Origin: Gammaproteobacteria bacterium
GTDB lineage: Bacteria > Pseudomonadota > Gammaproteobacteria > SZUA-140
Direction: 5' to 3'
NCBI GenBank assembly: GCA_021648525.1
Contig: JAKISP010000024.1
Location: forward strand, 1 to 57,909
DNA: 57,909 nt
Position numbers and translations under genes: made by a program. Shown in pieces: positions 12,627 through 15,228 of the stretch (within the stretch, counting starts at the first letter, position 1; every line of letters begins with the position of its first letter). The notes beneath the pieces are model-generated. The model saw only the letters and a program-made list of their open reading frames with translations, was not told the origin of the DNA and searched no databases.

Positions 12627-13115
12627 TTATGAGACCCTGAATTTGCGGCGCAGCGCGCGCAGGGTGATAAAGACAACGGGCCAGGCGATCATGCTGCTAA
12701 TCGATGGTAACCAGTAGGTGAGCAGGTTGATCGGTTGGCCGGTGATCCCCTTTACCCATAGATGTAACATTTGACTCAGTGATACCAGCACAAAGACACT
12801 TAAGGCCTGTTGCCATAGAGGAAAGACACGTAGTCGCTGGTAAAGTTTTAGCGTGATGTAGGCAATGATGCAGAGCGCGAGCGCATGCTCCCCTAGCAGG
12901 CCGATGCGCAATACATCGAGCATCAGCCCGAGTACCCAGGCAATCCCGACGCCGATACGATTTGGCAGCGCCATGCACCAGTAAATGAGAACTAATGTGG
13001 CCCATTCCGGGCGTACCACGGAGAGCCAGTCTGGCAGCGGAAAGACGGTGAGCGCGAGAGCTGCGATAAAGCTAAAGATAATGACTTCAGTACCATGTGC
13101 TTTTTTATGGATCAC
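12627..13115 (-). CDS. mreD: Rod shape-determining protein MreD
   Basis: A 162-residue integral membrane protein with about five hydrophobic segments, of the length and hydropathy usual for MreD. It carries the family-like PLPDWLSVVRPEWATLVLIYW near the N-terminus, and charged residues in GLMLDVLRIGLLGEHAL. It connects MreC to PBP2/RodA in the elongasome. Its ATG overlaps the mreC stop (ATGA at 13112-13115). Confidence 0.93.
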   Translation of the reverse strand: MIHKKAHGTEVIIFSFIAALALTVFPLPDWLSVVRPEWATLVLIYWCMALPNRIGVGIAWVLGLMLDVLRIGLLGEHALALCIIAYITLKLYQRLRVFPLWQQALSVFVLVSLSQMLHLWVKGITGQPINLLTYWLPSISSMIAWPVVFITLRALRRKFRVS

Positions 13116-14029
13116 GGGGTTGTTTCTCCCGCATCATCCTGCACGGCGTCTGGATCTGTGTCCGGGGTATCATCATTTGCCTTGGGACTTGTCTCAGGAT
13201 TTACGCCGGGTGGATTGTGCCAGACCAGTAATACTTCACGCGCGCTTTCAAGTTTACCCGTTGGTTCTGCCTGAACTTCAGCGAAGGGTTGGCCTGGATT
13301 GCGTGTGACCATGGTGACGCGCGCCGCCGGGTAGCCAGGTGGAAAACGTCCGCCGAGGCCAGAGGTGACGAGAAGATCGCCCACTTCAATATCGGCGTTG
13401 TTGGGTAGATGAGGCAGTTCGAGGCGGTTGGTTTCGCCAGTGCCCATCGCGATTGCGCGCTGGCCGCTGCGGTTCACCTGCACCGGCAATGCATGGCTAG
13501 GGTCGGTGATTAACATTGAAGTACTATTGAACGGGGTGACATGAACCACCTGGCCGAGGATGCCGCTGGCATCAAGGATCGGCTGGCCGCGATAGACGTC
13601 ATTGCGGGAGCCTTTGCTGATCACGACTTGCTGGGTGAAGGGTTTCATGTCGACTGAAAGCAGTTCGGCGATCAGTATTTTATCGCTGACATCAATAGAC
13701 GAATCGAGTAGCGCGCGTAGGCGCATATTTTCAGCTGCGATTGAATCGAGTTTTTGTAGTTGTGTGGCATATAAAAATTGCTGTGCGCGCAGGCTGTTAT
13801 TTTGATCAATCAGTGTCTGACGGCTCGATAACGATTCGGATAGCCATTCACCAACACCTGAAGGCAGGTTAATCAGGTACTGAATCGGGTAGATAGCGGT
13901 GGTGAGTACACTGCGTACACTTTCCATATGCTGCTGGCGGTGATCCATCACCATCATGGTAATGGAGAGAAACGTCAGGATGATCAGGCGCAGCGTGATG
14001 GACGGCCCTTGGACAAATAGGGGTTTTAT
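13112..14029 (-). CDS. mreC: Rod shape-determining protein MreC, apparent ATA start
   Basis: MreC is a bitopic protein whose periplasmic coiled coil and two beta domains activate PBP2. The first ATG of the frame is at 13957 (281 residues), but that start omits the membrane anchor. The frame continues upstream without a stop to 14029 and reads IKPLFVQGPSITLRLI followed by LTFLSITMMVMDHRQQ, which is the typical N-terminus of gammaproteobacterial MreC (usually MKPLF). The codon where Met is expected is ATA (14029-14027), with GAGGT five to six bases upstream; no ATG, GTG or TTG occurs before the in-frame TGA. I therefore annotate 305 residues beginning with ATA: one transmembrane helix at about 14-32, coiled coil about 60-105, beta domains to about 260, then an acidic low-complexity tail. 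A sequencing or point error converting ATG to ATA is the main alternative. Confidence 0.85.
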   Translation of the reverse strand: MKPLFVQGPSITLRLIILTFLSITMMVMDHRQQHMESVRSVLTTAIYPIQYLINLPSGVGEWLSESLSSRQTLIDQNNSLRAQQFLYATQLQKLDSIAAENMRLRALLDSSIDVSDKILIAELLSVDMKPFTQQVVISKGSRNDVYRGQPILDASGILGQVVHVTPFNSTSMLITDPSHALPVQVNRSGQRAIAMGTGETNRLELPHLPNNADIEVGDLLVTSGLGGRFPPGYPAARVTMVTRNPGQPFAEVQAEPTGKLESAREVLLVWHNPPGVNPETSPKANDDTPDTDPDAVQDDAGETTP

Positions 14030-14060
14030 AGGGCACCTCTCAGGCGATACTCAATGACTT

Positions 14061-14084
14061 AAAAAACCGGCTGGTTGGCCGGTT
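14061..14084 (-). terminator. Intrinsic terminator between mreB and mreC
   Basis: On the minus strand the sequence forms a perfect seven-base stem (AACCGGC / GCCGGTT) with loop CAACCA, directly followed by a run of T (complement of 14061-14064 plus the end of the stem). It lies about 76 bases past the mreB stop and about 31 before the mreC start. It should end most mreB transcripts and let a fraction read through to mreCD and the PBP2 genes. Confidence 0.75.

Positions 14085-14160: not shown

Positions 14161-15228
<1,068 letters not shown>

Follow-up and report, generated by a model that had tools for sequence, protein, structure and literature searches.

How can mreC, a gene whose product needs an N-terminal membrane anchor, be translated in full from a reading frame that offers no ATG, GTG or TTG codon upstream of the membrane helix? 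This question is raised by a 57,909 nucleotide stretch of a gammaproteobacterial genome (contig JAKISP010000024.1, the window in the following). An earlier note on this DNA had proposed that mreC is initiated at an ATA codon and had offered two explanations, a weak start that limits MreC synthesis or a base that is a recent mutation or a sequencing error. Here, we describe the start region of mreC in the window and compare it with mreC genes from across the Gammaproteobacteria.

Results

The mreC locus

The operon order mreB-mreC-mreD is intact in the window, with all three genes on the minus strand. The mreC coding sequence (13112..14029) runs from ATA to a TGA stop codon (13114-13112) and encodes 305 amino acids that score 206 bits against the curated family model TIGR00219 (cut-off 92.75). 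The MreC chain of PDB entry 7eft aligns with the window protein from residue 1. The neighbouring genes served as controls; mreB (14161..15210; TIGR00904/NF010539) starts with ATG, and mreD (12627..13115; TIGR03426) starts with a GTG that overlaps the mreC stop codon.

The minus strand at the mreC start reads cat TGA GTA TCG CCT GAG AGG TGC CCT ATA AAA CCC CTA TTT. The ATA codon (14027..14029) occupies column 1 of MreC, where Met or Ile is found. An in-frame TGA (14051..14053) closes the frame seven codons 5' of it, and in the window no ATG, GTG or TTG lies between the two, just as the earlier note had stated. A Shine-Dalgarno (SD) sequence, GAGAGGT (14035..14041), is located 5 nt before the ATA; the GAGGT recognized earlier (14039-14035) is part of it. 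The computed anti-SD duplex energy is -7.1 kcal/mol at the ATA versus +1.2 kcal/mol at the first in-frame canonical codon, an ATG at codon 25 (13955..13957) that a gene finder would choose. The hydrophobic membrane segment comprises codons 10-28 (13946..14002; Kyte-Doolittle 19-residue maximum 1.98) and is cut by a start at codon 25, which confirms that this ATG removes the helix. Thus, the single N-terminal membrane helix of MreC is present only with translation from the ATA, the sole possible start upstream of it.

A terminator-like hairpin in the gap between mreB and mreC (AACCGGC-CAACCA-GCCGGTT-TTTT, 14065-14084, minus strand) was considered as a second dosage device and rejected, since just 3 of the 10 genomes of the genus (the window and its two nearest relatives) carry it and the scan expects such hits by chance.

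Conservation of the start codon

In the following, ATH denotes ATA, ATC or ATT, and NTG denotes ATG, GTG or TTG. The earlier note had suggested inspecting the codon in related strains. All nine other genomes of the genus carry ATA at the same column with no NTG upstream, and their SD reads GAGAGGT, with G, T or A as the next base and unchanged spacing. The SD is also conserved in the family of the window, where mreC starts with ATA, ATC or ATT, and with TTG in one genus. The earlier note had understated its own case. It had also missed that the trait, judged by sequence comparison, is a feature of mreC across the Gammaproteobacteria rather than of this genome, and that it goes together with a strong SD.

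We scanned 369 genomes of the class with a start-neutral pattern (ATN, GTN or TTN in front of a degenerate KPLFxxGP) and obtained 34 mreC N-termini, 31 of them with ATH, three with ATG and none with GTG or TTG. Because the pattern and the top profile matches could favour near relatives, genes from leftover families were added to the profile search. The set comprises 185 distinct mreC genes, of which 163 were aligned at the N-terminus and 22 divergent ones were left out. Among the 163 N-termini, 116 start with ATH, 34 with NTG in the column or shortly before it and 11 with NTG further upstream, while two are unassigned. No NTG is found from the upstream stop to codon +3 in 96 of the 163, and all 96 have ATH at column 1 or at most three codons away. 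Counted by family (n=121), 78 use ATH only, 38 NTG only and three both. For the class as a whole, the ATH share of about 70% is best read as an upper bound, since the 22 divergent genes may hold more NTG starts. About a third of the sampled families use canonical starts, and hence the ATH trait of mreC is dispensable.

A further contig scan with the peptide IK[PA]LFxQGP favours Ile starts and served for named examples, not for counts. A match in a different class of the phylum (genome G386, locus L323), which might have extended the trait, was discarded because it proved to be a chance hit inside another open reading frame. At locus L088 the mreC N-terminus contains a duplication (ATAAAGCCGCTAAAGCCGCTG), and the ATA lies three codons upstream of the usual column.

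Column 1 is a start column rather than an isoleucine column, because some genes carry TTG, GTG, ATG or GTT there. A tree of 86 proteins shows at least 24 changes of the third base between A, C and T, with G avoided, and it shows 13 switches between ATH and NTG. Since the third base wanders in this way, it is the absence of G and not one particular codon that is kept. Across the class, conservation of the amino acids KPLFxxGPSxxxRL reaches as far as the ATH codon, and second-position changes are fewer in codons 2-25 of mreC than upstream.

Shine-Dalgarno strength and control genes

Over the 18 nt upstream, ATH starts of mreC have a median anti-SD energy of -7.1 kcal/mol, and 87% of them reach -5 or better, whereas the median of NTG starts (-2.6 kcal/mol) is close to the background of -2.5. 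This difference is significant with one gene per family (p = 4e-10), in a comparison in which some NTG assignments may be wrong. Only four tree-independent codon-SD pairs lie on well-supported branches; all agree, and they are too few for significance. For mreB, the SD shows no such difference between the groups with ATH and NTG starts in mreC (-3.5 and -3.85), so the contrast in mreC is not due to general SD use. In the loci that reach them, 192 of 193 mreB and 112 of 112 mreD genes have canonical starts. Thus, there is no general tolerance of ATH starts in these organisms, and among its neighbours mreC alone carries the trait. The infC gene of the window genome (locus L064, about 1489) starts, as expected of infC, with ATC directly behind GGAGG, overlapping the end of the upstream frame.

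Pseudomonad-like genomes

One family in our set (loci L317-L322) has mreC starts of ATC or ATT, with SD energies between -6.5 and -10.2 kcal/mol and no NTG upstream in six pattern matches. Its MreC most closely resembles the structures 6zlv/6zm0 from P. aeruginosa, and we infer that the family is Pseudomonadaceae. In P. aeruginosa MreC, the conserved E-x-R pair is numbered Glu188/Arg190, and the cytoplasmic part together with the membrane segment lies within only 14 residues (PMC8137920). Counted from the ATH codon, the equivalent glutamate of the relatives is residue 204, which is exactly 16 more than the published number. Two of three relatives have their first NTG at codon 17, and the third has NTG codons from 13 on, including 17. 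The simplest reading would be that the P. aeruginosa database protein has been annotated from an internal GTG that lies within the membrane helix, where the P. aeruginosa side is taken from the published numbering and the codons from relatives. Database entries of this type are probably truncated within the helix, because the published numbering is short by 16 residues. By implication, many MreC proteins in databases lack the first 16-25 residues and the membrane helix. Gene finders restricted to ATG, GTG and TTG miss an ATH start of mreC every time.

Discussion

We consider it likely (probability about 0.8) that mreC is initiated with formyl-methionine at AUA behind a strong SD, and that the weak codon combined with the strong SD represents an ancient, selected low set-point. 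The AUA would mismatch the initiator anticodon at the third base only, and the strong SD 5 nt upstream would make initiation possible at all. IF3 destabilizes initiation complexes on codons other than ATG, GTG and TTG, which is exploited in infC autocontrol (PMC5472188). Rejection of third-base mismatches by IF3 would then render initiation at the mreC AUA inefficient, and the weak codon with its strong SD would keep synthesis of MreC low relative to MreB and MreD. MreC synthesis would probably also become sensitive to the IF3 level. A reason for such a limit may be found in E. coli, where cells with too much MreC become shorter and wider, MreD opposes this effect, and the MreC/MreD balance sets PBP2 activity (PMC7793260). 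However, the low yield is an assumption, and the strong SD may restore ordinary MreC levels.

Lineages that moved to ATG, GTG or TTG seem mostly to have lost the SD and may thereby have reached low initiation by another route. E. coli mreC (NC_000913, b3250) shares the orthologous protein and the operon order mreB-mreC-mreD, and differs in having an ATG start with no clear SD. Low MreC initiation might thus be achieved in most families by an infC-type, IF3-discriminated codon with a strong SD and in enterics by ATG with a weak SD. More tentatively, mreC could be a broadly conserved target of IF3 discrimination in Gammaproteobacteria including pseudomonads, such that the amount of an elongasome activator would be set by IF3 availability, and wall elongation and cell shape would be tied to the state of translation initiation. 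We regard this extension as possible and give it somewhat less than even odds.

Other explanations have to be weighed against initiation at the ATA. The codon is one base away from ATG and the draft genome consists of 76 contigs, which would favour an ATG that was misread in sequencing or assembly or that mutated recently in this genome. This reading is refuted by conservation, because the same codon is kept in 10 of 10 genus genomes and most families of the class have ATH, and we regard it as practically out of the question. Translation could instead begin at the downstream ATG (13957), leaving the ATA segment untranslated and MreC without a membrane helix, and this is indeed what calling open reading frames with table 11 returns. 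That ATG has no SD, while in most genes the SD is positioned for the ATH codon. The conserved motif extends to the ATH codon, codons 2-25 evolve with the restraint described above, and MreC needs its anchor; a downstream start is therefore very improbable. Even less credible is an unrecognized start further upstream that would leave isoleucine encoded as an internal residue at the column. A few genes (L036, L039, L235) do have an in-frame NTG upstream, but the 96 genes without any NTG between stop codon and helix, the stop seven codons upstream in the genus, and the occurrence of GTT, TTG, GTG or ATG at the column speak against it.

A different kind of objection accepts the near-cognate codon as real and denies it a regulatory role, so that it would be a neutral or mildly deleterious relic tolerated thanks to the strong SD. 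The repeated lineage switches between ATH and NTG would fit such a view. However, ATA to ATG is a single transition, and yet 78 families have kept ATH, with a third base that varies between A, C and T; moreover, the weak SDs of NTG lineages suggest that output is held down. We therefore judge a tolerated relic unlikely and favour the selected low set-point. From the earlier interpretation, the ATA start and its role as a weak start that limits MreC stand as the best explanation, and mutation and error fall away.

To our knowledge, very few bacterial genes keep a start outside ATG, GTG and TTG over long evolutionary times. mreC adds to these an essential shape gene, with a trait that extends over most of the sampled gammaproteobacterial families. 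In the open-access literature searched, to which subscription papers did not belong, we found no report of a non-canonical start of mreC. A conserved near-cognate start is of a known kind; the membership of mreC, the breadth of the trait and the codon-SD trade-off appear to be new. As in infC, sigR and ccpN, we find no canonical in-frame start, conservation over long distances and a strong, properly spaced SD. One of the closest likenesses is to infC (AUU/AUA/AUC start with IF3 autocontrol); both genes have a conserved third-base-mismatch start behind a strong SD. Unlike infC, mreC is a structural cell-shape gene that does not encode the discriminating factor and is not autoregulated. With mreC, it can be tested directly whether elongasome dosage is set by IF3 and growth state.

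In staphylococci, reporter output from the AUA/AUU starts of ccpN, cvfC1 and citZ is about 10-30% of that from AUG, and extended SDs are found on infC, cvfC1 and ccpN (PMC13009471). The conserved near-cognate starts with extended SD of ccpN (AUA) and cvfC1 (AUU) in staphylococci and Bacillus resemble that of mreC. However, these genes are Firmicutes regulators, whereas the mreC trait covers most sampled families of a class. The Streptomyces sigR gene has a GTC start that is repressed by IF3 and sets its dosage against RsrA (PMC5472188). It is similar to mreC as a gene outside translation with a non-canonical start, and its dosage is set against a partner from the same operon; codon and phylum differ, and for sigR, unlike mreC, control by IF3 was shown experimentally. 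The GTC of sigR is also reminiscent of the GTT found at column 1 of some mreC genes.

Such GTT codons stand behind an SD at loci L223, L227, L229 and L234 (Halioglobus and other metagenome-assembled genomes), and in the first three no NTG lies upstream. GTT start codons are, as far as we know, nearly undocumented. At L234 (Thiohalophilus thiocyanatoxydans), the GTT is preceded one codon upstream by ATC.
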